Positions 4,682 to 27,281 of a stretch of DNA of 64,000 nucleotides are shown here, one piece after another. The notes below the pieces were generated by a model, which saw only the letters and a list, made by a program, of their open reading frames with translations, had not been told where the DNA came from and did no database searches. The DNA is from Natronorubrum thiooxidans (GTDB lineage Archaea > Halobacteriota > Halobacteria > Halobacteriales > Natrialbaceae), in assembly GCF_900156475.1 (NCBI RefSeq), contig NZ_FTNR01000004.1, forward strand, positions 1 to 64,000, written 5' to 3'. Every line of letters starts with the position of its first letter. Position 1 is the first letter of the stretch. Made by a program: the position numbers and the translations under genes.

Positions 4682-4819
4682 ATGGGAGAACAGACGCGTG
4701 GTCAGCACCGGTACGCTGAACAGCAGACGGAGGCCGGTACCGTTCGTATTTTCGACACTGAAAACGATGCGGCGTGGATCGAATCGGATACGACACTCGC
4801 AGTTGCCTGGCAGACCTGA
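4682..4819 (+). CDS. Small DUF7331-like protein
   Basis: This 45-residue protein has the core TVRIFDTENDAAWIESDT. The core closely matches that of another small gene in this window, beside polB (YETDDGVVFYDAENPLAWVETS). That fits, from memory, a haloarchaea-specific family (DUF7331). The ATG is preferred because sequence upstream of it is A/T-rich and promoter-like (a TTATAAT stretch about 14 bases before). No function is known. It is too short for an enzyme, and a single beta-rich domain is likely. It stands alone between the hydrolase and the convergent NmrA gene. Confidence 0.6.
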   Translation: MGEQTRGQHRYAEQQTEAGTVRIFDTENDAAWIESDTTLAVAWQT

Positions 4820-7391: not shown

Positions 7392-8609
7392 TCAGGCGAA
7401 GGTCTTGGAGACGTCTTCGGTTTCGTCCGAATCGGCCTGGACTTTCTTCCAAGCGTTGCGGAAGTCGTCCATTCGGATCTCGGTCCGCTCGTCGCGGATC
7501 GCGAACATCCCGGCTTCCGTACAGACGGCCTTGACGTCGGCACCGGAGGCCTCCTCGGCTTCCTCGGCCAGTTCCGCGAAGTCGACGTCGTCGGCGACGT
7601 TCATGCCGCGGGTATGGATCTCGAAGATGATCTCGCGACCCTCCTCGTTGGGCTTTGGCACCTCGATAAGGCGATCGAACCGGCCGGGACGGAGGATGGC
7701 ACGATCGAGCATGTCGAAGCGGTTCGTGGCGGCGATGATCCGGATCTCGCCACGTTCTTCGAAGCCGTCCATCTCGGAGAGCAGTTGCATCATCGTCCGC
7801 TGGACCTCGGCGTCGCCCGACGTTTTGGACTCCGTTCGCTTGGCAGCGATGGCGTCGATTTCGTCGATGAAGATCACGGCAGGTTCGTGCTCGCGGGCGA
7901 CCTTGAACAGATCGCGAACGAGCTTTGCCCCCTCGCCGATGAATTTGTGGACCAGTTCCGAGCCGGCCATCTTGATGAAGGTGGCGTCGGTCTGGTTGGC
8001 GACGGCTTTCGCGAGCATCGTCTTCCCGGTCCCCGGCGGCCCGTAGAGCAAGACGCCGCTCGGTGGATCGATGCCCACGTCGTCGAACATCTCGGGCTTC
8101 TCGAGGGGCATCTCGACGGTCTCACGAACTTCCTGCATCTGCTCTTCGAGCCCACCGATATCCTCGTAGCTGACCTCGGGGCTCTCGGTGACTTCCATCA
8201 CGCGGGCACGCACGTCAGTCTCGCTCGAGAGGCTCTTGACGATAGATAGCGAGTTGTTGACGGCGACCCGGTCGTCGGGATCGATCTCCTTGCGGAGTTC
8301 GTCGGTAACCTCCGTCAGCGCCTCCTGGTTGTTCCCGTGTTGTTTGATGATGACGCCTTCGTCCGTGATTTCCTGGACGGTGGCGACGAACAGCGGGGAC
8401 TGCTTGAGTTTCTTGTTCTCGTGTGTGAGTCGCTCGAGTTTCTGCTGGTACTTATTGTTCTCGGCGTTGGCATCGAGGAGTTTGTCTCTCATCTCCTCGT
8501 TTTGCGCCTCGAGGATCTCCAGCTGTTCCTCGAGTGACTGAATTTTCTCCTGTTGGGACGCCTCGTCCTCGTCGTATGGGAGGTCGACGTCGTCCACAGT
8601 GTCGCTCAT
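7392..8609 (-). CDS. pan: Proteasome-activating nucleotidase (PAN)
   Basis: This is the AAA+ ATPase that unfolds proteins into the 20S proteasome. It has 405 residues. An N-terminal coiled coil (about 15-70) is followed by an OB domain (70-145). The AAA module carries Walker A GPPGTGKT at 190-197, Walker B VIFIDE at 245-250 and arginine-finger region RPGRFDR. The extreme C-terminus reads KTFA, so the HbYX gate-opening motif is of the variant form with Phe in place of Tyr. The start MSDTVDD is chosen over an upstream Met because the intervening residues are basic. It is divergent from a helix-turn-helix gene across a 124-base A/T-rich promoter region. Confidence 0.95.
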   Translation of the reverse strand: MSDTVDDVDLPYDEDEASQQEKIQSLEEQLEILEAQNEEMRDKLLDANAENNKYQQKLERLTHENKKLKQSPLFVATVQEITDEGVIIKQHGNNQEALTEVTDELRKEIDPDDRVAVNNSLSIVKSLSSETDVRARVMEVTESPEVSYEDIGGLEEQMQEVRETVEMPLEKPEMFDDVGIDPPSGVLLYGPPGTGKTMLAKAVANQTDATFIKMAGSELVHKFIGEGAKLVRDLFKVAREHEPAVIFIDEIDAIAAKRTESKTSGDAEVQRTMMQLLSEMDGFEERGEIRIIAATNRFDMLDRAILRPGRFDRLIEVPKPNEEGREIIFEIHTRGMNVADDVDFAELAEEAEEASGADVKAVCTEAGMFAIRDERTEIRMDDFRNAWKKVQADSDETEDVSKTFA

Positions 8610-8733
8610 CACCCGTCTCTTGGGTGTTGCTTCATAAGAGGCTTCGGGTAGGTGCACTCAGTCACGAAATATAACCACTAGGCATTTATAGAAACAGAAA
8701 ATATTATCACCCTGTATTCTAAACGGAGAGGTG
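8610..8733. promoter_or_regulatory. Divergent promoter region of pan and an HTH gene
   Basis: The 124 bases between the two divergent start codons are A/T-rich. TATA-like elements occur on both strands (around CATTTATAGA and AATATTATC). GGAGAGGTG directly before the HTH start is a Shine-Dalgarno-like element. The HTH protein is a natural candidate regulator of this region. Confidence 0.4.
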
Positions 8734-9003
8734 ATGAGTGCTTCAGAGTCGTTGCGACACGAGGCCGAACCGCGGGGGACGTGGGACGACGTCAGAGAAC
8801 TGCCGCCGAGTGCGAAACTCGTCGCGAAGGTCCTCGAGTACAACGACACGATGACCCAACAGCAGATCGCCGACGAGACGCTCCTGCCGTCTCGAACCGT
8901 TCGATACGCACTGAACCGCCTCGACGAGGAAAACGTCATCGACTCGCGGTTTTCCTTCTCGGACGCACGCAAGCGGCTATACAGTCTCGATATCGAGGAG
9001 TAA
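8734..9003 (+). CDS. MarR-like winged helix-turn-helix protein
   Basis: This 89-residue protein is almost entirely a winged helix. The helix pair MTQQQIADETLLPSRTVRYALNRL is typical of MarR/TrmB-type DNA-binding domains, followed by wing residues ENVIDSRFSFSDARKRLYSL. No effector domain is present. The ATG directly follows a GTG in frame. The GGAGAGGTG element upstream supports this start. Divergence from pan suggests control of proteasome expression or of itself. From memory a similar gene lies beside panA in other haloarchaea. Confidence 0.75.
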   Translation: MSASESLRHEAEPRGTWDDVRELPPSAKLVAKVLEYNDTMTQQQIADETLLPSRTVRYALNRLDEENVIDSRFSFSDARKRLYSLDIEE

Positions 9004-9245: not shown

Positions 9246-11345
9246 GTGACCGACTCGAGAACCGGGATCGAGCGCCGGGCCGTCCTCGGCGCACTTGCCG
9301 GTATCAGCGGGGCTTCGATGGCTGGCTGTTCGGCGTTCGAACGCGACGCTGACGGCCAGACGAGCCAGCTCGACGATGATGCGGCTCGAGCGTTGGCGAC
9401 GCGGTTCGCCCCGACGCTGTACTTCGACGTTCACGAGCCGTGGTTTCCGACGGATCCGCGGCCCTACACCAGCGAGCGCGACGGTGAGACGCTCGTCACC
9501 GGGTTCGATGCCTTCGACGGCTACCACGAACGGTATCGCGACGGGAGTCCACCGGATCCGACGGTGTTCTACCGCGCCGTCGAGTACGAGGACTCGCCAC
9601 TCGCCGTGGTCCAGTTCTGGTTTTACTCGGTGTTCGATCAGTTCACGACCAATTTCCACTGGCACGACTGGGAAGTGTTGCACGTCTTCGTCGACACCGA
9701 AACCGGTGACCCGCAACTGCACGTCGCCAGCTCTCACTCCCGGATGGTACCGAACAACGAGTTCTTGGACCCGGATCCGGAGCAGGTTCCGCGTATCCTC
9801 GTGGAACTCGGCTCTCACTCGAGCACGCTCTCGGTCAACGACGTCCCCGATCGCTTCCAGCGGGTCGCCATCGAGGACTTGCTGGCGGACATCACGAACA
9901 CGGCGCTCGAGGGCATCGAAGACCTCGCGGACCTCGAACTTCCGCTCGCGTACGGACTGCCACGAGACGAGGGATCGCGACTTCCCTACCTCGTGCCGGA
10001 GTACGACGGTGCCCCGATATACGACCACGAGCGCTTGCCGTCGGTCACTCGCGAGTCGTTGATCGACGACGACCTGACCGTCCGATCGTACGACGCGCTG
10101 ACGTCGCCGCCAACGGGGCTGCCGACGCGCGAGACTGGGCTCGTCTTCGGGCACCACGAGCGACAGGGCGAGGCCGACACCGACGTCGAGTACGACCTCG
10201 TCCCGAGCAGTGAGATCGAACACATCGCGGCCTTTACTGGCCCGCAGCTGAGCTTCGAGTTCGCCGTTCCGGACGTAGTCGAGGACGCCATGGCCGGCCA
10301 CATCACGACGACGGGGACGCCGTGGAGCCAGCCTCGGTACGAGAATCCGGCGGCGGATATCTCCGTTCCGAACCACCGGACGACACTGGCCGACCGCTAC
10401 GATGCCATCGGCGAAGCGGCACCGATCAACACCGTCGTTGCTCGCCTCACGGAGACGATCACGGCCGACGACGCACCGGAAAACGAGGGACTGACCACGA
10501 CGGAGACGGCCCTCGAGTCGGTCGTCTTGCTCGAGAGCGACCCCGAAGCCGTCCCGACGTTCGGTGGCGTCGCGGTCGTACAGGACGTCCCGGCTGGCGA
10601 GCACCGACTGACGGTCAACGGTGCCGGTCGAGCACCACACAGCGAACGTGTCAGCGTCACTGACGACGGGACGCCGACGGCGGCCGGCGTCGGCGGTGAG
10701 ATTCCGCTTGTTGCCCGCAACGAGTCGACAAAGCTAGAACTCATGGGCGAAAACGCGTCGACCGCCCTCTCGACGGTGGCCGTCGAAGACGACTTCGCCG
10801 GACGGCTGTACGAGTCGTCGGTCGAGGGAAACGACGCCGTCTACGTCCACGCAGGCGGGGCCTACACGACCGAGGTTCGGGACGGCGACGACGCCGTCGG
10901 TGCTTATCGCGTCAACCCGTCCCCCGAGGCCGAGTCGACGGTCCGAATCGAACGCCCCGAGACCGGCAAAGCACCACTTTCCGAGTTCGTAGCGGATATC
11001 GCCGACGAGACGCGGCTGGCGGTCGCAGCGGCCAACGGCAACGACGATGACGACGACGGAGACGAGGATGGGGACAACGATTCGTCGAACGCCGTCGAGG
11101 GTCTCGAGCGAGCCCTTGCAGCAGTCGTTGAGGCCGCACGAAGGGCCGCCGAACGGGCACGCGACAGCGAGCAAGCCGGTGCCGACAGGCAACTCGAGAC
11201 CGTGGCCGAGCGACTTCAGCGGGTAGAAAAGCGTCTCGCAGCGGCCAGCGACGACCTCCCGCAGTCGCTCTCGAACGCGACCCGAAACAGACTGGCACAG
11301 GCCGATCAGCGCACGGAGCAGGCCCGGGCCGCCGAGAAACTGTAG
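9246..11345 (+). CDS. Large Tat-exported lipoprotein of unknown function
   Basis: This 699-residue protein starts with a twin-arginine signal (ERRAVLGALAGISGASMAGC) whose lipobox cysteine at about residue 28 predicts lipid anchoring outside the cell. The mature N-terminal domain (about 45-360) is rich in aromatic and His-Asp pairs. Examples are RFAPTLYFDVHEPWFPTDPRPY, QFWFYSVFDQFTTNFHWHDWEVLHVFVD and QLHVASSHSR, a pattern suggestive of a metal-dependent beta-sandwich domain. A Ser/Thr-rich beta domain follows, then an Asp-rich linker (near 615) and an Arg/Glu coiled coil at the C-terminus. It precedes mre11 but is separated from it by a likely promoter. The start is GTG. Function is unknown. 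Confidence 0.75.
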   Translation: MTDSRTGIERRAVLGALAGISGASMAGCSAFERDADGQTSQLDDDAARALATRFAPTLYFDVHEPWFPTDPRPYTSERDGETLVTGFDAFDGYHERYRDGSPPDPTVFYRAVEYEDSPLAVVQFWFYSVFDQFTTNFHWHDWEVLHVFVDTETGDPQLHVASSHSRMVPNNEFLDPDPEQVPRILVELGSHSSTLSVNDVPDRFQRVAIEDLLADITNTALEGIEDLADLELPLAYGLPRDEGSRLPYLVPEYDGAPIYDHERLPSVTRESLIDDDLTVRSYDALTSPPTGLPTRETGLVFGHHERQGEADTDVEYDLVPSSEIEHIAAFTGPQLSFEFAVPDVVEDAMAGHITTTGTPWSQPRYENPAADISVPNHRTTLADRYDAIGEAAPINTVVARLTETITADDAPENEGLTTTETALESVVLLESDPEAVPTFGGVAVVQDVPAGEHRLTVNGAGRAPHSERVSVTDDGTPTAAGVGGEIPLVARNESTKLELMGENASTALSTVAVEDDFAGRLYESSVEGNDAVYVHAGGAYTTEVRDGDDAVGAYRVNPSPEAESTVRIERPETGKAPLSEFVADIADETRLAVAAANGNDDDDDGDEDGDNDSSNAVEGLERALAAVVEAARRAAERARDSEQAGADRQLETVAERLQRVEKRLAAASDDLPQSLSNATRNRLAQADQRTEQARAAEKL

Positions 11346-11452
11346 TCAGACACCGGACGCGCTGTTCGGTCGCGAGACGCCGCCGTGCGCTCGAGTTCAC
11401 TTTCACACCGGTCACCGAACCCCTTTAGGACGCGCCCGCCAACGAGCGAGCA

Positions 11453-12736
11453 ATGACGCGGGTACTCCATACGGGCGATACCCACATCGGGTATCAGCAG
11501 TACAACTCGCCCGAGCGACGCCAGGACTTTCTCGAGGCTTTCCGCTCCGTCGTCGAAGACGCAGTCGCCGCCGACGTCGACGCCGTAATCCATGCGGGCG
11601 ACCTCTTTCACGACCGTCGGCCGGGACTGGTCGACTTACAGGGCACCGTCGAAATCCTGCGAACGCTCGCCGACGCCGACATTCCCTTTCTCGCCGTCGT
11701 CGGCAACCACGAGGGCAAACGCGACGCCCAGTGGCTCGATCTCTTCGCCGATCTCGGGCTGGCAACGCGACTCGGGGCCGAGCCCGAACTGATCGACGAC
11801 GTCGCCGTCTACGGACTCGATTTCGTCCCTCGCTCCCGCCGCGACGACCTCGAGTACGAGTTTGCCCCTGTCCCCGAGGCAGCCGACCACGCGACGCTCG
11901 TGAGCCACGGCCTGTTCGAGCCCTTCGCCCACGCTGACTGGGACACCGAGCGACTACTCTCCGAATCGACGGTCGAGTTCGACGCCGTTCTGCTCGGTGA
12001 CAACCACAAACCCGACACTGCGGAACTGCGTGACACATGGGTCACCTACTGTGGCTCGACCGAACGGGCAAGCGCGAGCGAACGCGAGGACCGTGGCTAC
12101 AACCTCGTCGACTTCGATGATGACGCCGTCTCGATCAGCCGTCGCGGGCTCACCGATACCCGCGAGTTCGTCTTCGTCGACGTCGACCTCGCCGAGGGCG
12201 AGGGTGTCGACCGCGTTCAGGAACGGGTTCGCGAGTACGACCTCGAGGACGCCGTCGTCATCGTAACAATCGAAGGCGATGGCCGGCCGATCACGCCGGC
12301 ATCGATCGAGGAAGCCGCCATCGACCGCGGCGCACTCGTCGCCCGCGTCAACGACCGCCGGGAACTCCCCGACGAGGACGAAGAACTCGCGGTGAACTTC
12401 GCCGACCCCGACGCGGCCGTTCGCGAACGCGTCCGCGAACTGGGCCTCAGCGACGCTGCCCTCGAACTCGACGAAACCGTCCGAAACGATGAGTTGGTGG
12501 ATTCGAACGTCCGCGAAACCGTCGAACGCCGCGTCCGGGAGATTCTCGAGGAGGACGTGGCTGCGTTCGATCCGGCTCCGGACCGTGAGCCCGATGACGA
12601 GGACGTGACGACGGTCGCAGACCAGCTTCCAGAGGCGGGCGACGATCTAGAAGACAGTGACGAATCCACAGGGGAGACGACGGATGATGAGGACAGTGGA
12701 CCCGCAGATACCGCTTCACTGGGTGATTTCGCATGA
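11453..12736 (+). CDS. mre11: DNA double-strand break repair nuclease Mre11
   Basis: This is the Mn-dependent nuclease of the Mre11-Rad50 complex, which trims and tethers broken DNA ends. Phosphoesterase motifs are present: D9-T-H11, G49-D50, G84-N-H-E87, VSHGLF and GDNHKPD. At 427 residues it has a long acidic C-terminal tail (EDVAAFDPAPDREPDDEDV...), including the expected Rad50-binding region. The stop overlaps the rad50 start by four bases (ATGA), so the two proteins are translated in a coupled way. A TTTAGG promoter element sits about 30 bases before the ATG. Confidence 0.95.
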   Translation: MTRVLHTGDTHIGYQQYNSPERRQDFLEAFRSVVEDAVAADVDAVIHAGDLFHDRRPGLVDLQGTVEILRTLADADIPFLAVVGNHEGKRDAQWLDLFADLGLATRLGAEPELIDDVAVYGLDFVPRSRRDDLEYEFAPVPEAADHATLVSHGLFEPFAHADWDTERLLSESTVEFDAVLLGDNHKPDTAELRDTWVTYCGSTERASASEREDRGYNLVDFDDDAVSISRRGLTDTREFVFVDVDLAEGEGVDRVQERVREYDLEDAVVIVTIEGDGRPITPASIEEAAIDRGALVARVNDRRELPDEDEELAVNFADPDAAVRERVRELGLSDAALELDETVRNDELVDSNVRETVERRVREILEEDVAAFDPAPDREPDDEDVTTVADQLPEAGDDLEDSDESTGETTDDEDSGPADTASLGDFA

Positions 12737-15411
12737 GGGTCGACCGCATCCGACTGCTGAACTTCAAGTGCTATGAGGAAGCCGAACTCGGACTCGAGCG
12801 CGGCGTCACCGTCGTCCACGGCGTCAACGGCAGCGGCAAATCGACGCTGCTCGAGGCCGTCTTCTTCGCCCTCTACGGCTCGAAGGCACTGGACGATCGC
12901 ACCTTAGATGACGTCATTACGACCGGCGAGGACGAAAGCGAGGTCGAACTGTGGTTTACCCACGACGGCCGCGAGTACCACATCGAACGCCATCTCAAAC
13001 TCCGCGGTGACCGAGCGACGACGGCGAAATGCGTCCTCGAGACGCCAACGGAGACGATCGAAGGCGCACGGGATGTCCGCCGCGAGGTAACTGAACTCCT
13101 GCGGATGGACGCCGAGGCGTTCGTCAACTGCGCCTACGTCCGCCAGGGCGAGGTCAACAAGCTGATCCACGCCTCGCCGAGCGATCGCCAGGACATGATC
13201 GACGACCTCCTCCAGCTTGGGGCCCTCGAGACCTATCGCGAACGGGCCAGCGACGCCCGACTCGGCGTCAAGACGGTCCTCGACGGCCAACAGGAAGTCC
13301 TCGAGGATCTCCACAAACAGGTCGAGCACAAAGAAGGGAAGGAGCTTCATGAGCGCCTGAACGGGCTCGAATCCCGCCAAAACGACGTTCGCGAGGAGAT
13401 CGACCGCTTCGAAACACAACGTGAGCAGGCACGAAACACCCTCGAGAGCGCCGAAAACGTCCTCGAGCGCCACGCGGAAACCCGTGAGGAGATCACGACG
13501 CTCGAGACGGCAATCGAGGAATTGCGGTCGAAGATCACCGAAACCGAACGCAAGCGCAAGGACGCAAACGACGAGATTCGAGACCTCGAGGACCGACGCG
13601 AGGAACTCGCCGTGGAGCGCGAGGAGCTGCTGGCCGAGACCGATCTCGAGGCCGGCGATGATGACGCAGTCGAGACACGGATTGCGGACCTCGAGGCACG
13701 TGACGACGAGCTTCAAGACGACCTCAACGAGATCCGCGTTTCGGTCACGGAGACCACGAGCGAAATCGAACGCTGCCGCGAGGCGGCTGACGAGCTCGAG
13801 TCCAAAGCCGAGGCTGCCCGCGAGCAGGCCGACGACCTCGATGCAAAACTCGAGGCCGACGCGGAGGCCATCGAGGATCGTGAAGCGAAGTTAGAGGCGC
13901 TCGAGGCCGAAATCACCGCCGCACGCGAGCGCTTCGACGATGCCCCGATCGCGTTCGGTGAGGCCGCCGAGCATCGCGACTCGCTCGAGACGGAACGCGA
14001 GGCACTGACCGACGAGATCGGTGACGTTACCGCCGACATTCGGACCGTCGAGAACGCGATCGATGAGGGCGAACGGCTGCTCGAGGAGGGCAAGTGTCCC
14101 GAGTGTGGCCAGCCCGTCGCGGACTCCCCACACGTTGACGTGCTGGACGACAAACGCGAGGAACTCGCGGAACTCGACGATCGACGCGAAGACCTCGAGG
14201 TCAAACGCGACGAGCTCGACGACCGGCTCGATCGTGCCGAGGAGCTCCGCGAGGCCGAACGGCAGGTCGACCGGCTCGAGGAGAACCGGGAGAACATCGA
14301 GCAACTCCTCGCGGAGAAACGCGAGACGCTTGCAGAGCGACGCGACCAGTGCGAGCAGTTGCGCGAGGATGCTGAGACGTACGCGACCGACGCCGAGGAC
14401 GAACGCGCGACTGCCGACGACCTCGAGGACGAGGTCGCCGACTACCGGGCCGAACTCGGCGCGATCAACACCGACCGTGGCGAGATCAAAGACACACTCG
14501 AGTCGCTCCGACGCATCGCTGCGGTCGGCGACGAACGTGATGACCTTGCGGGCGAAATCGAGACGCTCCGGGACCGCCGTCAGGACTGGCAGACGATGAA
14601 CGACGAGCGCCGCGAGACGCTCTCGAACAAACGCGAGCGCAAGCGCGATCTCGAGTCGGAGTTCGACGAGGACCGCATTGAAACCGCCCGCAATGACAAG
14701 CAAAACGCCGAGAACTACCTCGAGCAAGTCGACGCGAAACTCGAGGACCTGGAGTCCAAACACGACAACCTCCAGAACGCGATCGGGGCCGCCGAACGGG
14801 AACTCGAGGAACTCGAAGAGCTCCGCGAGCGTCTCGAGGGCGTCGAGAAGCGGTGTGAACGCCTCGAGTCGCTGTACGACGAAGCCGAGACGCTGCAGGC
14901 GACCTACGCCGACCTGCGGGCTGAGCTCCGCCAACAAAATGTCGAGACCTTAGAACGGCTGCTCAACGAGACGTTCGAGTTGGTCTACCAGAACGACTCC
15001 TACGCGGCGATCGATCTCGACGGCGAGTATCGCCTGACCGTCTACCAGAAAGACGGTGAGACCTTAGAGCCCGAACAGCTTTCGGGCGGCGAACGGGCGC
15101 TTTTCAACCTCAGCCTGCGGTGTGCGATCTATCGGCTGCTCGCCGAGGGTGTCGAGGGAACGGCCCCGCTACCGCCGCTGATCTTGGACGAGCCGACAGT
15201 GTTTCTTGACTCCGGTCACGTCACGCAACTCGTCTCGCTGGTCGAGTCGATGCGCGACCTCGGCGTCGAACAGATCGTCGTCGTGAGCCACGACGAGGAA
15301 CTCGTCGGCGCGGCGGACTCACTCGTCCGCATCGAAAAGGATGCCACATCGAACCGCTCGCGGCTCGAGCGTGGCGAGCCGCCCCAAGCGGAGCTGCTCG
15401 CATCGGACTGA
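12733..15411 (+). CDS. rad50: DNA double-strand break repair ATPase Rad50
   Basis: This is an SMC-like ATPase of 892 residues. Walker A GVNGSGKST lies at residues 30-38. A long antiparallel coiled coil is interrupted by the zinc hook C455-P-E-C458. The C-terminal head has signature LSGGERALFNLSL (near 782) and Walker B LILDEPTVFLD (near 816). It forms a heterotetramer with Mre11, whose gene overlaps it. It is convergent with the DUF7346-like gene across 43 bases. Confidence 0.95.
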   Translation: MRVDRIRLLNFKCYEEAELGLERGVTVVHGVNGSGKSTLLEAVFFALYGSKALDDRTLDDVITTGEDESEVELWFTHDGREYHIERHLKLRGDRATTAKCVLETPTETIEGARDVRREVTELLRMDAEAFVNCAYVRQGEVNKLIHASPSDRQDMIDDLLQLGALETYRERASDARLGVKTVLDGQQEVLEDLHKQVEHKEGKELHERLNGLESRQNDVREEIDRFETQREQARNTLESAENVLERHAETREEITTLETAIEELRSKITETERKRKDANDEIRDLEDRREELAVEREELLAETDLEAGDDDAVETRIADLEARDDELQDDLNEIRVSVTETTSEIERCREAADELESKAEAAREQADDLDAKLEADAEAIEDREAKLEALEAEITAARERFDDAPIAFGEAAEHRDSLETEREALTDEIGDVTADIRTVENAIDEGERLLEEGKCPECGQPVADSPHVDVLDDKREELAELDDRREDLEVKRDELDDRLDRAEELREAERQVDRLEENRENIEQLLAEKRETLAERRDQCEQLREDAETYATDAEDERATADDLEDEVADYRAELGAINTDRGEIKDTLESLRRIAAVGDERDDLAGEIETLRDRRQDWQTMNDERRETLSNKRERKRDLESEFDEDRIETARNDKQNAENYLEQVDAKLEDLESKHDNLQNAIGAAERELEELEELRERLEGVEKRCERLESLYDEAETLQATYADLRAELRQQNVETLERLLNETFELVYQNDSYAAIDLDGEYRLTVYQKDGETLEPEQLSGGERALFNLSLRCAIYRLLAEGVEGTAPLPPLILDEPTVFLDSGHVTQLVSLVESMRDLGVEQIVVVSHDEELVGAADSLVRIEKDATSNRSRLERGEPPQAELLASD

Positions 15412-15454: not shown

Positions 15455-15940
15455 TTACGAGCTGCTGTCTGCGGTTCCATCCGACGACTCGGCGACCGCC
15501 CCAAGGTCGTGTTCCGACGCCGTTGGAAGCTGGTCGAGCGCGGTCGTACATGTCTTGGTGGCTCGATAGCCGCGCTCGCAGGCGATATCGACTTGCTCGA
15601 GCAAGCCAGCGGCTGACAGTACCGTGAGCCGGCCGTGGAGGTCGCTCTCACAGAAGTCGTACTCGTCGAGGAGCGTGCGGATACCGAGCGGGCCGCGATT
15701 ATCGAGTTCGATCAGGAGTCCGAGCGTCGCCTCGTCGTGGACGTTCGTCAGGAGCGTTCGGACCGGGTCGGAGATGGTTCGAGCCGCTGTCTCGAGAGGT
15801 GACTCGTCGGTGTCGTCCTCGAGGCGGTCGTTCTGGATGTAACACTCGTTGCCGTTCTTCGGATTTCGAACGAGGCTCGCGTGTTCGGAGCGTTTGAGAA
15901 GCAGATACCGTTTGCCGGTGTCGTCGTGGACGGTTTTCAT
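15455..15940 (-). CDS. Haloarchaeal wHTH-like protein (DUF7346-like)
   Basis: This 161-residue protein begins with a conserved MKTVHDDTGKRYLLLKRS strand motif. It then has a winged-helix-like central part: DPVRTLLTNVHDEATLGLLIELDNRGPLGIRTLLDEYDFCESDLHGRLTVLSAAGLL (positions about 58-115). Two cysteines (NGNECYIQ, ERGYRATKTC) are not arranged as a zinc site. From memory this family sits beside rad50 in many haloarchaea. The gene is probably last in a minus-strand set of three between rad50 and polB. A DNA-binding role in repair or its regulation is an inference from location. Confidence 0.65.
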   Translation of the reverse strand: MKTVHDDTGKRYLLLKRSEHASLVRNPKNGNECYIQNDRLEDDTDESPLETAARTISDPVRTLLTNVHDEATLGLLIELDNRGPLGIRTLLDEYDFCESDLHGRLTVLSAAGLLEQVDIACERGYRATKTCTTALDQLPTASEHDLGAVAESSDGTADSSS

Positions 15941-16008
15941 GATCGTATGTGCTCGTCCGGTGACTGATGTAGGGAGACCGCTATTGAAGTAGTTTCGCCT
16001 GCATCCCG

Positions 16009-16563
16009 TTACGTCGATCTGGGGGGCCGTTCGTCGTTGGTGTCAGTGTTAGTGGCGTCGTTGGATTTGGACGGGGATTCGTCGGCTGCCTCGAGGTCGT
16101 TGTCCGCTGTCTCAGCCGTGTCGGCAGTCGGTTCGCCGCTGGTATCGTCGTCACCTTCTGCCGTGGTGTCGTCGGGTCGTTCGAACGTTCGGTAGCGACG
16201 GATCGCAAAGCCAGCGAAAACGAGGCCGGCGGCCCCCAGATAGGCGCTGTAGGTCTCTTCGCCCTCGAACACTAGAAAGAGAAGGCTGAGTGCAAACGCC
16301 AAGACGGCGGCGTTGACGACGAGCACGAGCGCCCAAAAATGTGTGAGGAGGTCGCTATCGACGTCGGTATCCGCCGTCGAGAATTCTGGAGCAGTCGCAT
16401 CCTCCTCGAACTCTGCTTTGAGATCCGACCGCAGGTCCGACCCCGCGTCTTCGGTCGGCACTTGAGGAATAGTCAGTGAGTCGTCATCGGGGTCCCTGAA
16501 CGCCGCTTCGGGATCGTACTCGTCGGGTTCGTCGGGTTCGTGCTCGGATCGATCGGCTCCCAC
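16009..16563 (-). CDS. Two-span acidic membrane protein (DUF7322-like)
   Basis: This 184-residue protein has a long acidic N-terminus and two adjacent transmembrane helices (about 75-98 and 103-122: HFWALVLVVNAAVLAFALSL and SAYLGAAGLVFAGFAIRRY). A low-complexity Asp/Thr/Glu tail follows. Both ends should face the same side, probably the cytoplasm because RRYRTF follows helix 2. It lies in the conserved gap between rad50 and polB. It might tether repair or replication proteins to the membrane, but nothing in the sequence proves this. Confidence 0.65.
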   Translation of the reverse strand: MGADRSEHEPDEPDEYDPEAAFRDPDDDSLTIPQVPTEDAGSDLRSDLKAEFEEDATAPEFSTADTDVDSDLLTHFWALVLVVNAAVLAFALSLLFLVFEGEETYSAYLGAAGLVFAGFAIRRYRTFERPDDTTAEGDDDTSGEPTADTAETADNDLEAADESPSKSNDATNTDTNDERPPRST

Positions 16564-16661
16564 ACTCGAACGGTGGACAACGACTCAAAAAAGCGTTCGT
16601 GTTCGATCGTTGATTATGTCGAGAACAGTCGAACAGCAACACTGATCGCTCGCCGAGACAG

Positions 16662-16838
16662 TCAGGCGACTTCTGAAAGCGAAAAGGTCTGCGAGGTTTC
16701 GACCCACGCGAGCGGATTTTCGGCGTCATAGAAGACAACACCGTCGTCCGTCTCGTAGGACTCGACCGTCGCGGTGCCCGCTGGTTCACTACGTGGCTCG
16801 CTTCGATCCGTCGTGTCGTCGTTGACGTGGGTGGACAC
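16662..16838 (-). CDS. Small DUF7331-like protein beside polB
   Basis: This 58-residue protein has core TVESYETDDGVVFYDAENPLAWVETS. It is paralogous to the small gene at 4.7 kb. The chosen GTG start gives STHVNDDTTDR after the initiator Met and has GGTGATC about ten bases upstream. A GTG three codons earlier is the alternative. It is divergent from polB across about 130 bases. Function is unknown. The position next to a replicative-type polymerase and the Mre11-Rad50 genes is the only clue. Confidence 0.62.
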   Translation of the reverse strand: MSTHVNDDTTDRSEPRSEPAGTATVESYETDDGVVFYDAENPLAWVETSQTFSLSEVA

Positions 16839-16936
16839 TTCGATCACCTACCGCCATGGTATGTGTTACCACGTTATATGTCTTGCTGCACCTGCAATAC
16901 TCAGACAGCCACGGCCAGTCAGCTGAATTGTGGGGG

Positions 16937-16968
16937 TTTTTATCCAGTCGCTGCCAACTCGAAGACCA
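16937..16968 (+). promoter_or_regulatory. polB core promoter
   Basis: TTTTTATC at 16937-16944, preceded by a G-run, is a TATA-like element 25-31 bases before the polB ATG. That spacing predicts an almost leaderless transcript, as is usual for haloarchaea. Confidence 0.45.
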
Positions 16969-19900
16969 TGACTGAGGCGGGCCAAACCGGACTTGCAGAT
17001 TTTTCTCAAGAGTCCGACGAGCGACCGGACGAAGAGGCCGTTGCCATTGCTGGCAACGGTGGATCAAGCGCTGGCGAGGTGATCGACGTCGTCGAGGAGA
17101 CCCTTCCCGAACCTGACGGCGACTGCGAGCTGGCCGTGATGCAGGTCGATTACACCATCGCCGGCTACGGCGACGAGGAACGACCGATCATGCACGTCTT
17201 CGGCCGGACAGCCGACGACGAACTCGAGCATGTCCAAGTCGTCGGCTTTCGACCCTACTTTTACGCACCGACGGACTCGCTCGAGCGCCCCCCCGAAGAG
17301 CAGTACGATCGGTTAACCGGGAGCCGCGAGGTCGATGCCGACGGTGAGCCATACGAGAGTATTCGTGGCGAGAACCTCACCAAGATCTTTGGGCAGACCC
17401 CCCGTGACGTCGGGCAAGTGCGTGATGACTTCCAGCATTTCGAAGCCGACATTCTCTTTCCGAACCGGTTTCTGATCGACAAAGACGTCCGCAGCGGCAT
17501 TCGCGTGCCCGAACGCCGGGCCGACGACGGCTCGCTGGTCGTTCCACACGACGAGGTCGAAGCCGTAGACGTCGACGCCAACCCGCGTATCTGTACGTTC
17601 GACATCGAGGTCGACGACCGCTCGGGCTTTCCCGAGGACGGCGAGGAGCCGATCGTCTGTCTGACGAGCCACGACTCCTATCGCGACGAGTACATCATGT
17701 GGCTCTACGAGGCCCCCGTCGGCGACGGCCCGGTCCCCGACGCGATCACCGACTACGAGCCGATCGAGGGCGATCTCGAGCACGAAGTCCGGAGCTTCGA
17801 GGAGGAAGAAGCGATGCTCGAGGCGTTCATCGAGTACATCCAAAAAACCGATCCCGACGTCCTGACGGGCTGGAACTTCGAGGATTTCGACGCCCCCTAT
17901 TTCCTCGACCGCCTCGAGGAACTGCAGGGCCCCCACCACGAGTACGATCTCGAGATCGATCGCCTCTCTCGAGTGGATGAGGTCTGGCGCAGCAACTGGG
18001 GCGGGCCGGACATCAAGGGCCGGGTCGTCTTCGACCTGCTGTATGGCTATCAGCGGATGGTCTTCTCGGAACTCGATTCCTATCGGCTGGACGCCGTCGG
18101 CGAGGCCGAACTCGGCGTCGGCAAGGAACGCTACGCCGGTGACATCGGTGACCTCTGGGAAGACGATCCCACCCAACTGCTCGCGTACAACCTCCGAGAC
18201 GTCGAACTCTGTGTCGAACTCGACCGCCAACAGGAGATCATCCCGTTCTGGGATGAGGTGCGCTCCTTTGTCGGCTGTAAACTCGAGGACGCCCCCACAC
18301 CCGGCGACGCAGTCGACATGTACGTTCTCCACGAGGCCCACGGCCGCTTTGCGCTGCCCTCGAAGGGCCAACAGGAGGCTGGCGAGGAGTACGAAGGCGG
18401 GGCCGTCTTCGATCCCATCACGGGTGTCAAAGAGAACGTCACCGTGCTGGACCTGAAATCGCTGTACCCGATGTGCATGACGACGGTCAACGCCTCGCCG
18501 GAGACGAAAGTTGACCCCGACGAGTACGGCGGGGAGACCTACGTCGCACCGACTCGGCCCGACCCGATCCACTTCCGGAAAGAGCCCGACGGCGTCATGC
18601 GCGAGATGATCACCGAACTGCTCGCCGAGCGCGAGGAAAAAAAGTCGCTGCGAAACGAGTACGAACCCGGCTCGCTCGAGTACGAGCAGTACGACCGTCA
18701 GCAGGGTGCGGTAAAGGTTATCATGAACTGCTTTACGCCGGACACGGAAGTCTTGACTCCCGACGGCGTTCGCGATATCACCGACCTCGAGATCGGCGAC
18801 GAGGTGTACTCACTCGATCCGAAGACGGAGCAACTGGAGGTCAAGCCAGTCGTCGAAACGCACGCCTATCCCGACTACGACGGCGAGCTAATCGACATCG
18901 AGACGAGCAAGATCGACTTCCGCGTCACGCCGAATCACCGGATGCTCGTCCGAAAGAACGAGACGAACGGGATTACCGAAGACGAATACGATTTCGTCGA
19001 GGCAGGAGATCTTGACCGAGCGACCAACTACGAACTCCCTCACGACTGGACGGGACCTGACGGTGAGGAACTCGAGCAAGTCGACCTCACGGAACTGATC
19101 GACGGTGAGTACGAGGTCTGGGTCCGACCGTCTGTCCACGGCCACACGTTTACCGCAGAACTCGGCTGGACACCGCGTCGCGTGCCAAAGGCCGATGTCG
19201 GGAAAACAGGCTACGTCTTCACTGCCGAAGAGTTCGAGGAACACCGCGAATACATCGAGGACGTCTGTGAACTGAGCTACATCCACCGGGAATCCGGCCG
19301 GAAATGGATCCCACGGACATACGATGGCGACGACTTCCTCGACCTGCTCGCGTGGTTTGTCACGGAAGGCAACATCTACACATCCGAAGACAAACAGTTC
19401 GGCGAGAACGTCCGTGGCTCGGCGACGACGATACAACTCGCACAAGACAAACTGCCTGTCACTGACGGTGGCGTCGACCATCACACGACGATCGGCACTC
19501 TTCTCGATGAGATGGGATTCGATTACTACGTCGACGACCGCTCGTATTCGGTGACGTCGAAACTCCTCGGAAACCTCCTGACATCGCTCTGTGGCGACGG
19601 CAGCTTCGAGAAGCAAATTCCCGACTTCGTCTTCGAGTGCAGTCGCGGACAGAAACGACGGTTTCTCAAGGTCCTGATCGATGGTGACGGCGATCGACAG
19701 ACGAACGCCTGGCGATATACGACCTCGAGTGACAAACTCCGAGATGACGTGCTTCGACTCTGCGCACATCTCGGACTGACGGCCAACTACAACCGCGATA
19801 GCGGCTCGTGGCGAATCTACGTGACTGAAGATTCGAAGAACACACTTCGAATGCATCGCAGCTCCGCCCAAAGTACGGCCGAAAACGGCGTCTACTGCGT

Positions 19901-20933
19901 CACCGTTGCGGACAACCACACGCTGCTTGCAGGCCGGAATGGTACGTTCCAGTTCGTCGGCCAATCGCTGTACGGCGTGTCGGGGTGGGAACGATTCCGT
20001 CTCTACGATAAAGAGGCGGCAGCTGCGATTACTGCCACCGGGCGCGAGGTCATCGAATTCACCGAGACTGCCGCAACCGAACTGGATTATCAGGTCGCGT
20101 ATGGTGACACCGATTCGGTCATGCTCGAGCTCGGCCCCGACGTCCCGAAAGCCGACGCGCTCGAGCAATCGTTCGAGATCGAGGAGTACATCAACGATCG
20201 GTACGACGACTTCGCGCGCGACGAGCTCAATGCCGAGCTCCACCGGTTCCAGATCGAGTTCGAGAAACTGTATCGGCGATTCTTCCAGGCGGGCAAAAAG
20301 AAACGCTACGCCGGCCATATCACCTGGAAAGAGGGCAAAGACGTCGACACGATCGACATCGTTGGCTTCGAGTACCAGCGCTCGGACATCGCCCCGATCA
20401 CCAAGGAGGTCCAACACGAGGTCATCGAGAAGATCGTCCGTGAGGGCGACGTCGAGGGGACAAAGGAGTACCTCAACGAGATTATCGAGGACGTCAGGAC
20501 GGGCAACATCTCGCTCGAGGAGATCGCCATTCCGGGCGGGATCGGCAAGCGACTGGACAACTACGACACCGACACGGCACAGGTCCGCGGCGCGAAGTAC
20601 GCCAACCTGCTGCTCGGGACGAACTTCCAGCGTGGCAGCAAGCCAAAACGGCTCTATCTGGATCGCGTCGATCCGTCCTTTTTCGAGCGACTCGAGGCAG
20701 AGGAAGGGTTCGACGCCCGCACCGATCCACTCTATGGCGCGTTCAAACGCGACCCCGACGTGATCTGTTTCGAGTACGACGACCAGATCCCCGAGGCGTT
20801 CGAAGTCGATTACGACACGATGCTCGAGAAAACGCTGAAAGGCCCGATCGAACGCATTCTCGAGGCACTCGGTGTCTCGTGGGAGGAGGTCAAAAGCGGC
20901 CAGGAGCAGAAAGGTCTGGATAGCTTCATGTAG
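16968..20933 (+). CDS. polB: Family B DNA polymerase with intein
   Basis: This is the replicative/repair DNA polymerase. The precursor has 1321 residues. Removal of the 412-residue intein leaves about 909. The proofreading exonuclease motif is D212-I-E-V. Polymerase motif A is D495-L-K-S-L-Y-P. Motif B, KVIMN/SLYG, is split by the intein after Asn587, and motif C YGDTDS is at 1045-1050. The start MTEAGQ is supported by a TATA element at leaderless distance; the upstream ORF extension is Cys-rich and unlike the family. It is divergent from the small DUF7331 gene and followed by a T-rich stretch. Confidence 0.95.
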   Translation: MTEAGQTGLADFSQESDERPDEEAVAIAGNGGSSAGEVIDVVEETLPEPDGDCELAVMQVDYTIAGYGDEERPIMHVFGRTADDELEHVQVVGFRPYFYAPTDSLERPPEEQYDRLTGSREVDADGEPYESIRGENLTKIFGQTPRDVGQVRDDFQHFEADILFPNRFLIDKDVRSGIRVPERRADDGSLVVPHDEVEAVDVDANPRICTFDIEVDDRSGFPEDGEEPIVCLTSHDSYRDEYIMWLYEAPVGDGPVPDAITDYEPIEGDLEHEVRSFEEEEAMLEAFIEYIQKTDPDVLTGWNFEDFDAPYFLDRLEELQGPHHEYDLEIDRLSRVDEVWRSNWGGPDIKGRVVFDLLYGYQRMVFSELDSYRLDAVGEAELGVGKERYAGDIGDLWEDDPTQLLAYNLRDVELCVELDRQQEIIPFWDEVRSFVGCKLEDAPTPGDAVDMYVLHEAHGRFALPSKGQQEAGEEYEGGAVFDPITGVKENVTVLDLKSLYPMCMTTVNASPETKVDPDEYGGETYVAPTRPDPIHFRKEPDGVMREMITELLAEREEKKSLRNEYEPGSLEYEQYDRQQGAVKVIMNCFTPDTEVLTPDGVRDITDLEIGDEVYSLDPKTEQLEVKPVVETHAYPDYDGELIDIETSKIDFRVTPNHRMLVRKNETNGITEDEYDFVEAGDLDRATNYELPHDWTGPDGEELEQVDLTELIDGEYEVWVRPSVHGHTFTAELGWTPRRVPKADVGKTGYVFTAEEFEEHREYIEDVCELSYIHRESGRKWIPRTYDGDDFLDLLAWFVTEGNIYTSEDKQFGENVRGSATTIQLAQDKLPVTDGGVDHHTTIGTLLDEMGFDYYVDDRSYSVTSKLLGNLLTSLCGDGSFEKQIPDFVFECSRGQKRRFLKVLIDGDGDRQTNAWRYTTSSDKLRDDVLRLCAHLGLTANYNRDSGSWRIYVTEDSKNTLRMHRSSAQSTAENGVYCVTVADNHTLLAGRNGTFQFVGQSLYGVSGWERFRLYDKEAAAAITATGREVIEFTETAATELDYQVAYGDTDSVMLELGPDVPKADALEQSFEIEEYINDRYDDFARDELNAELHRFQIEFEKLYRRFFQAGKKKRYAGHITWKEGKDVDTIDIVGFEYQRSDIAPITKEVQHEVIEKIVREGDVEGTKEYLNEIIEDVRTGNISLEEIAIPGGIGKRLDNYDTDTAQVRGAKYANLLLGTNFQRGSKPKRLYLDRVDPSFFERLEAEEGFDARTDPLYGAFKRDPDVICFEYDDQIPEAFEVDYDTMLEKTLKGPIERILEALGVSWEEVKSGQEQKGLDSFM
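18729..19964 (+). other. Intein with LAGLIDADG-type homing endonuclease in PolB motif B
   Basis: The 412-residue intein starts with Cys (CFTPDTEVLTPDG, block A) and ends ...NGTFQFVGQ before the extein Ser of SLYG. The block B TPNH motif (DFRVTPNHRMLV) is present. Two endonuclease-like segments occur, LLAWFVTEGNIY and GNLLTSLCGDGSFE, followed by FLKVLIDGDGD. Block F VYCVTVADNHTLLAG is clear. The last two residues are Gly-Gln, not the usual His-Asn, so splicing must use a Gln variant of Asn cyclisation. The insertion interrupts an essential polymerase motif, so splicing is needed for activity. Confidence 0.9.
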
Positions 20934-26704: not shown

Positions 26705-26850
26705 TCGTGCAGCTGAACAATGTTGCCGGGACGCGGGTCACGACACTTCGAACGGCACTTCGGCGAACACGCGTCCGTATGGACGCCCGGATGCTGTCAG
26801 TCCGACGAGCGACCACCGCGACGGACGGCCTCAACGGAGGGACACAATGA
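26701..26850 (+). CDS. Possible 49-residue basic ORF bridging two genes
   Basis: The frame is open from an ATG overlapping the ferritin-like stop (ATGA) to a TGA overlapping the SirR-like start (again ATGA). The product, MIVQLNNVAGTRVTTLRTAL... and so on, contains about ten Arg and few acids, which is the reverse of the haloarchaeal norm. Third-position GC is lower than in neighbours. The double overlap suggests ribosomes may read through to couple the flanking genes. It may be only a translated spacer rather than a functional protein. Confidence 0.35.
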   Translation: MIVQLNNVAGTRVTTLRTALRRTRVRMDARMLSVRRATTATDGLNGGTQ

Positions 26851-27281
26851 ACACTGCAGATCAGTATCTCAAGGCAATCTATCTCGCACAACGAATCGAA
26901 GAGGGCCCTGCATCAACCGGCACACTCGCGGACTTACTCGATGTCAGTCCGGCGAGCGTCAACGAGATGATCGGGAAACTCGAGGAGCGCGGACTCGTTG
27001 ACCACGAGAAGTACAAGGGGGCAAGCCTGACCGATGAGGGGATCGAACGCGCACACAATGCCCTCCAGACCTACTGCATTATCGAACGGTTTCTCGCGAA
27101 CGTCCTCGAGGTCGAGGAGTTCCGCGATGAGGCACGTGCCTTAGAGAGCGTCATCGACGACACCGTCGCCGAGCGCCTCGACACCATTATCAACCGGCCC
27201 AGTGACTGCCCGGACTGTTTCGACCCCGAACTGGATTACTGTGAGCGACTCGAGGTCGGTCCCGACGGGTGTGCGGACTGA
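26847..27281 (+). CDS. sirR: DtxR/SirR-family metal-dependent transcriptional regulator
   Basis: This 144-residue regulator has a winged helix at 1-60 (TGTLADLLDVSPASVNEMIGKLEERGLVDHEKYKGASLTDEG). The dimerisation/metal-binding domain contains NALQTYCIIERFLANVLEVEEFRDEARALE, where the family has Cys/Glu/His ligands. The tail is Cys-rich (DCPDCFDPELDYCERLE). It should bind Fe or Mn and control iron and redox genes. GGAGGG lies a few bases before the ATG. It ends the suf cluster and is a good candidate to bind the suf inverted repeat. An intergenic stem-loop repeat follows directly. Confidence 0.88.
   Translation: MNTADQYLKAIYLAQRIEEGPASTGTLADLLDVSPASVNEMIGKLEERGLVDHEKYKGASLTDEGIERAHNALQTYCIIERFLANVLEVEEFRDEARALESVIDDTVAERLDTIINRPSDCPDCFDPELDYCERLEVGPDGCAD

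Follow-up and report, generated by a model that had tools for sequence, protein, structure and literature searches.

A conserved haloarchaeal gene trio between rad50 and polB and the operator-like element at its promoter

Results and discussion

The window analysed here comprises the first 64,000 nucleotides of contig NZ_FTNR01000004.1 of Natronorubrum thiooxidans (NCBI RefSeq assembly GCF_900156475.1). Three small genes lie on its minus strand between the break-repair genes and a family B polymerase, where the first-pass annotation had placed three uncharacterised reading frames, and each proves to belong to a genuine Pfam family. In order of transcription, the first (16662 to 16847) encodes a 61-residue DUF7331 protein (PF24018, E 1.2e-26, 93.4 bits against a cut-off of 27), the second (16009 to 16563) a 184-residue DUF7322 protein (PF24008, E 4e-20, 71.6 bits against 27, profile positions 1 to 61 of 61) and the third (15455 to 15940) a 161-residue DUF7346 protein (PF24037, E 1.2e-62, 210.6 bits against 28, profile positions 1 to 138 of 139). 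All three match over their full length and well above the cut-offs; the Pfam entries assign them no function. An alternative start for the DUF7331 gene, the GTG at 16838, gives the 58-residue protein originally described, and members of this family are 58 to 61 residues long.

Pfam domain matches verify both flanks as mre11–rad50 and polB. On the plus strand, mre11 (11453 to 12736, PF00149) overlaps the start of rad50 (12733 to 15411, identified by Pfam AAA/SMC matches and synteny), which is convergent with the DUF7346 gene. The polymerase gene polB (16968 to 20933, plus strand; PF00136, PF03104, Hint and LAGLIDADG) is divergent from the DUF7331 gene and lies outside the putative operon. It carries a single intein with a LAGLIDADG domain at about 18729 to 19964; the polB start and the intein edges were taken from reading of the sequence. 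We note that polB of several relatives is interrupted by two or more inserts at differing positions (L062, L072, L108). A weak DUF7331-like reading frame (23–38 bits) at 4682 to 4807 is possibly a degenerate paralogue. Searches for defence systems (PADLOC) and known RNAs (Rfam) found none.

The AlphaFold2 model of DUF7346 is confident (mean pLDDT 91.9) and bears out the earlier description of a winged-helix-like protein. In the model a small N-terminal beta domain (residues about 1 to 40) precedes an ArsR/RosR-like winged helix (about 57 to 140). Foldseek with this model returned ArsR regulators (best E 2.6e-3), and a PDB profile search gave HlyU as a weak match (E 0.006). VIA-align superposed DUF7346 on HlyU with a Z of 11.5 (rmsd 2.9 over 89 residues) and on the RosR protein of H. 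salinarum with the same Z (rmsd 2.5 over 85 residues). HlyU (4k2e, 5znx) and RosR (6qfd) thus share the winged-helix fold with residues about 50 to 145 of DUF7346, at 15–20% identity, and their matches do not extend to its additional beta domain. None of the matches listed by the structural search covers that domain, which does not amount to evidence for a novel fold. Overall, the DUF7346 matches fall among ArsR, MarR and RosR regulators. The Pfam regulator families ArsR, MarR, PadR and HxlR gave nothing above cut-off with three DUF7346 members. It is a sound guess from the modelled fold that DUF7346 is an ArsR/RosR-like winged-helix regulator, and DNA binding is predicted.

Hydropathy places a membrane hairpin between acidic tails in DUF7322, 26% of whose residues are Asp or Glu. 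The two-span topology first proposed stands in part: the membrane segment is strong, with a peak at residues 80 to 98, and two spans are likely, but the second peak is weaker, and while 45 of 73 homologues have two hydrophobic peaks, 27 have only one. Paralogues of DUF7322 are located between pyrE-like and thrS-like genes. DUF7331 is very acidic and contains a conserved NPLAW motif in the alignment. Its AlphaFold2 model is a three-stranded beta sheet with a core of moderate confidence, which found no structural match in a fold search, and a sequence search of the PDB with DUF7331 gave no match. Since the N-terminal domain of DUF7346 is, like DUF7331, a small beta structure, a common origin of the two was considered and rejected, profile comparison giving it a probability of 0.3%. 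The paralogues of DUF7331 adjoin varied metabolic genes; those at L239, L241 and L252 (three genomes, two genera) lie near an HxlR-like winged-helix gene, too few cases to build on.

The three families are near-universal in haloarchaea. Among 145 haloarchaeal genomes, DUF7322 exceeds its curated cut-off in all, DUF7331 in 144 and DUF7346 in 139; when 90 genomes from the phylum were sampled, only haloarchaea passed the DUF7322 cut-off. Profiles were used to map the genes over 12–20 kb around the trio in 63 genomes, which represent 58 genera. DUF7331 has DUF7322 as its neighbour in 59 of these genomes. Where DUF7346 is present, it converges with rad50 in 54 of 57 genomes, and DUF7331 and polB diverge at a distance of at most 1.5 kb in 57 of 62. 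The trio genes share a strand and are separated by short gaps (medians of 93 and 59 bases over the 63 genomes). The same order was seen across 80 named loci, in agreement with the first-pass annotation, which has these small families fill this gap in Haloferax and other genera.

The trio is split in two genomes (G069 and G124), where DUF7346 remains with rad50 and DUF7331–DUF7322 with polB, and in Halostella DUF7322 has been relocated away from both partners. A creatininase-like gene occupies the DUF7322 position in G122 (L067, 8058 to 8936); a second strong operator-like match, of 21.1 bits, is found at the start of that gene. The locus of G106 (L097, 8634 to 15556) has an insert of about 7 kb in the putative operon, flanked by a truncated DUF7331 copy and a complete one. 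DUF7346 is missing from G001, G007, G093, G002, G021 and G129, which represent five genera. We note that the haloarchaea without it (G001, G007, G093 and others) mostly have small genomes of 1.9–2.7 Mb.

Makarova, Krupovic and Koonin had already reported these genes next to polB in 2014 (PMC4104785), so that our observation of the gene order is a confirmation and mostly known. These authors described HVO_0855–HVO_0857 of Haloferax volcanii as haloarchaea-specific genes adjoining PolB3, and proposed their co-regulation with polB or, as suggested for HVO_0855, a role in polB regulation; Mre11 and Rad50 go unmentioned in that paper. These are the same three genes, one with a helix-turn-helix and one with a P.AW motif that fits the NPLAW of DUF7331. 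Literature searches by locus tags and DUF names gave no user besides PMC4104785 among the papers covered, those by Halobacterium locus tags found no papers, and the papers covered contain no mechanism for DUF7346, DUF7322 or DUF7331.

The new result is a conserved, operator-like element specific to the promoter of the DUF7331 gene. The promoter core, defined by promoter alignment, genome search and a leave-one-family-out test, lies on the minus strand at 16857 to 16878 and reads TATAACGTGGTAACACATACCA. It consists of a TATA box, TATAA, at 16874 to 16878 and, directly behind it, the element at 16857 to 16873, recognised in the alignment of related promoters, whose form in the window is CGTGGTAACACATACCA. 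In the Natrialbaceae alignment of the polB–DUF7331 intergenic region, a near-invariant ATGTGGTAACACATA.CA stands directly behind the DUF7331 TATA. Other families carry the form TATA-NN-RTG-N6-CATACCA. The ideal form is an inverted repeat, TGGTATG-N6-CATACCA, and some families have it in full, as at L058.

Specificity was assessed at several levels. In its own genome the 22-base form, allowing up to 3 mismatches, matches the DUF7331 promoter and no other site. When 16 genomes were searched with a degenerate form, the DUF7331 promoter was the best or tied-best (lowest-mismatch) site in 9, and the remaining matches were no commoner than those of a reversed-pattern control. With leave-one-family-out models, 49 of the 62 DUF7331 promoters carry the element at P <= 0.01; among the 208 control promoters, which belong to mre11, sufC, sufB and rad50, only 5 do. 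Of 71 sites of at least 15 bits in 2.17 million positions, 70 are at the DUF7331 promoter, the model having been trained on the same promoters. The seed of the site model was chosen by eye after these promoters had been viewed, and as the regions upstream of polB contain the element themselves, controls were compared gene by gene. The element was not found at the mre11 promoter or at polB's own TATA, and it is clearly weak or absent at three loci that do have DUF7346 (L073, L105, L109).

A strong core promoter, made up of BRE, TATA and a −10 element and involving no operator, would also produce conservation at this site. The −10 position matters in archaeal promoters, and behind the TATA conservation is indeed highest in a TA at about −10; part of this conserved TA could be a general archaeal −10 element. 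Such a promoter is however hard to reconcile with the near absence of the element from the control promoters (5 of 208) or with the inverted repeats, with arms of 5 to 7 bases, seen in several families. We regard a core promoter alone as a very unlikely explanation and prefer to read the element as a candidate operator.

The suggestion made for HVO_0855, that DUF7346 regulates transcription of polB, gains from the winged-helix fold and from the divergent promoters that share a short intergenic region. The arrangement of the element does not favour it. The polB TATA-like box (TTTTTAT, 16937 to 16943, plus strand), conserved in Natrialbaceae, is about 58 bases from the element, which sits on the DUF7331 promoter; on the polB side of the intergenic region only this box was found, and no conserved regulatory site. 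In both split genomes DUF7346 is the gene no longer near polB, and genomes lacking DUF7346 keep both polB and the element. Our picture differs from the 2014 proposal in placing the element at the promoter of the trio itself; in addition, the trio or parts of it have become separated from polB by splits and relocations. Regulation of polB by DUF7346 appears quite unlikely.

The same genomes bear on what binds the element. It is strong where DUF7346 is missing (22.8 bits in G001 and G007 and 16.4 in G093, with a median of 19.7 under the model). In the split genomes it has been lost upstream of the DUF7346 gene (3.3 and −5.1 bits at L059 and L069), while the DUF7331–DUF7322 halves keep a weaker copy (11.3 and 13.0 bits). 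The element thus follows DUF7331: genomes lacking DUF7346 retain it, and in the split genomes it accompanies DUF7331. DUF7346, if it binds there, cannot be the sole binder. The initial reading, with DUF7346 as the only autorepressor, was set aside on the same grounds. The candidate binders are DUF7331, a regulator whose gene lies at another locus, and DUF7346 sharing the site with another protein.

Should the binder be DUF7331, this small beta protein of 58 residues would repress its own operon and DUF7346 would act elsewhere. Besides the association just described, the promoter of a distant DUF7331 paralogue (L239 and L241, one genus) has a copy of 20.0 bits, where control promoters, with those of the operon and of the divergent gene excluded, reach at most 8.7. 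This strong site is confined to one lineage among about 40 paralogues examined, and duplication of the gene together with its promoter would give the same picture. The protein is moreover very acidic, with a moderately confident model and no PDB match. Such self-repression by DUF7331 is, in our judgement, distinctly improbable. A bolder extension carries a similarly slim chance: DUF7331 would be the founder of a class of very small haloarchaeal proteins, of about 58 residues folded as three beta strands, forming with its winged-helix partner and membrane hairpin a signalling module in one operon, in which DUF7331 or an adaptor complex reads TGGTATG-N6-CATACCA and DUF7346 delivers the output at other promoters.

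The first-pass annotation took the position of the trio as a sign of selection for linkage and raised the possibility of an accessory part in break repair. The gene order is indeed far from freely broken, being kept in most of the 63 genomes, but linkage proves a poor pointer to repair. The conserved block extends past the repair genes. On the mre11 side, pan (7392 to 8657 in the window) is present in 47 of 65 loci and a small winged-helix gene (8731 to 9003) in 44; on the other side sufC follows polB, a linkage found in 48. The block thus holds proteasome and Fe–S assembly genes too. It also tolerates insertions, since a gene for a 699-residue protein with a lipobox-like N-terminus (9246 to 11345), between the winged-helix gene and mre11, has no Pfam match and a counterpart in none of the 65 loci. 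In Halovenus (L065, L172) the intact trio stands beside argG and a carbonic anhydrase gene, with neither mre11–rad50 nor polB within 8–9 kb, and in Halobellus an inversion-like change has broken the link to mre11–rad50.

Two side observations concern neighbouring promoters. Upstream of mre11 a separate candidate element, TTTCAC.CCGGTC.CGGAACC.CTTT (11398 to 11427), has a raw count of 39 of 59 loci at a threshold of at least 12 of 16. Upstream of sufC in related loci, outside the window, a palindrome ATGC-N4-GCAT occurs in 10 of 48 loci, whereas none of 166 control promoters has it. The window itself contains, at 26847 to 27281, a gene for a DtxR-like iron-dependent repressor.

If the three proteins had an accessory role in break repair or replication, helping Mre11–Rad50 or PolB with DUF7322 as a membrane anchor, their frequent adjacency to rad50 (54 of 57 genomes) and polB (57 of 62) would follow naturally, as would the retention of DUF7346 beside rad50, and so its link to mre11–rad50, in both split genomes. 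The halves of the split trios nevertheless go with different neighbours, the Halovenus trio is away from both sets of genes, and the block that brings them together includes pan and suf. Five genera do without DUF7346, and of the genomes lacking it, most of those that could be read retain mre11–rad50. The searches returned no repair-type fold or domain, the element is absent from the mre11 promoter, and nothing in the analysis supports DUF7322 as an anchor for end tethering. Of the proposed regulator of repair, the regulator survives as a sound guess from the fold and structural matches of the winged-helix protein; the link to repair is unsupported. A slowly rearranging inherited block accounts for the linkage no less well than a common pathway would, and the position beside mre11–rad50 and polB is best explained by such a block, with pan and suf, and not by a repair function. 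The repair interpretation is weak, and we consider the accessory-factor role unlikely.

We give about an even chance to the reading in which DUF7331, DUF7322 and DUF7346 form one haloarchaea-specific operon with a dedicated repressible promoter, encoding an ArsR/RosR-like regulator with two partners. From sequence we infer co-transcription, repression, DNA binding by DUF7346 and joint working of the three products. The genes would be read as one unit; a dimeric repressor, bound to the element that separates the TATA box from the start, would block TBP/TFB or the polymerase. DUF7346 would be the winged-helix regulator of the module, and its beta domain, together with the DUF7322 hairpin and the DUF7331 beta protein, would carry or receive the regulator's signal. 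The intact trio of Halovenus, away from mre11–rad50 and polB, speaks for the operon; the departure of DUF7322 in Halostella and its replacement in position by a creatininase-like gene in G122 speak against it.

Conclusions

A near-universal haloarchaeal trio beside a replicative polymerase and break-repair genes invites annotation as repair proteins by neighbourhood. On present evidence the neighbourhood is a poor guide to the function of these genes. The trio instead offers a defined promoter element that is testable in Haloferax volcanii, for which the genomes lacking DUF7346 are natural controls. The binder of the element, once identified, would tell whether the products of the operon control its expression.
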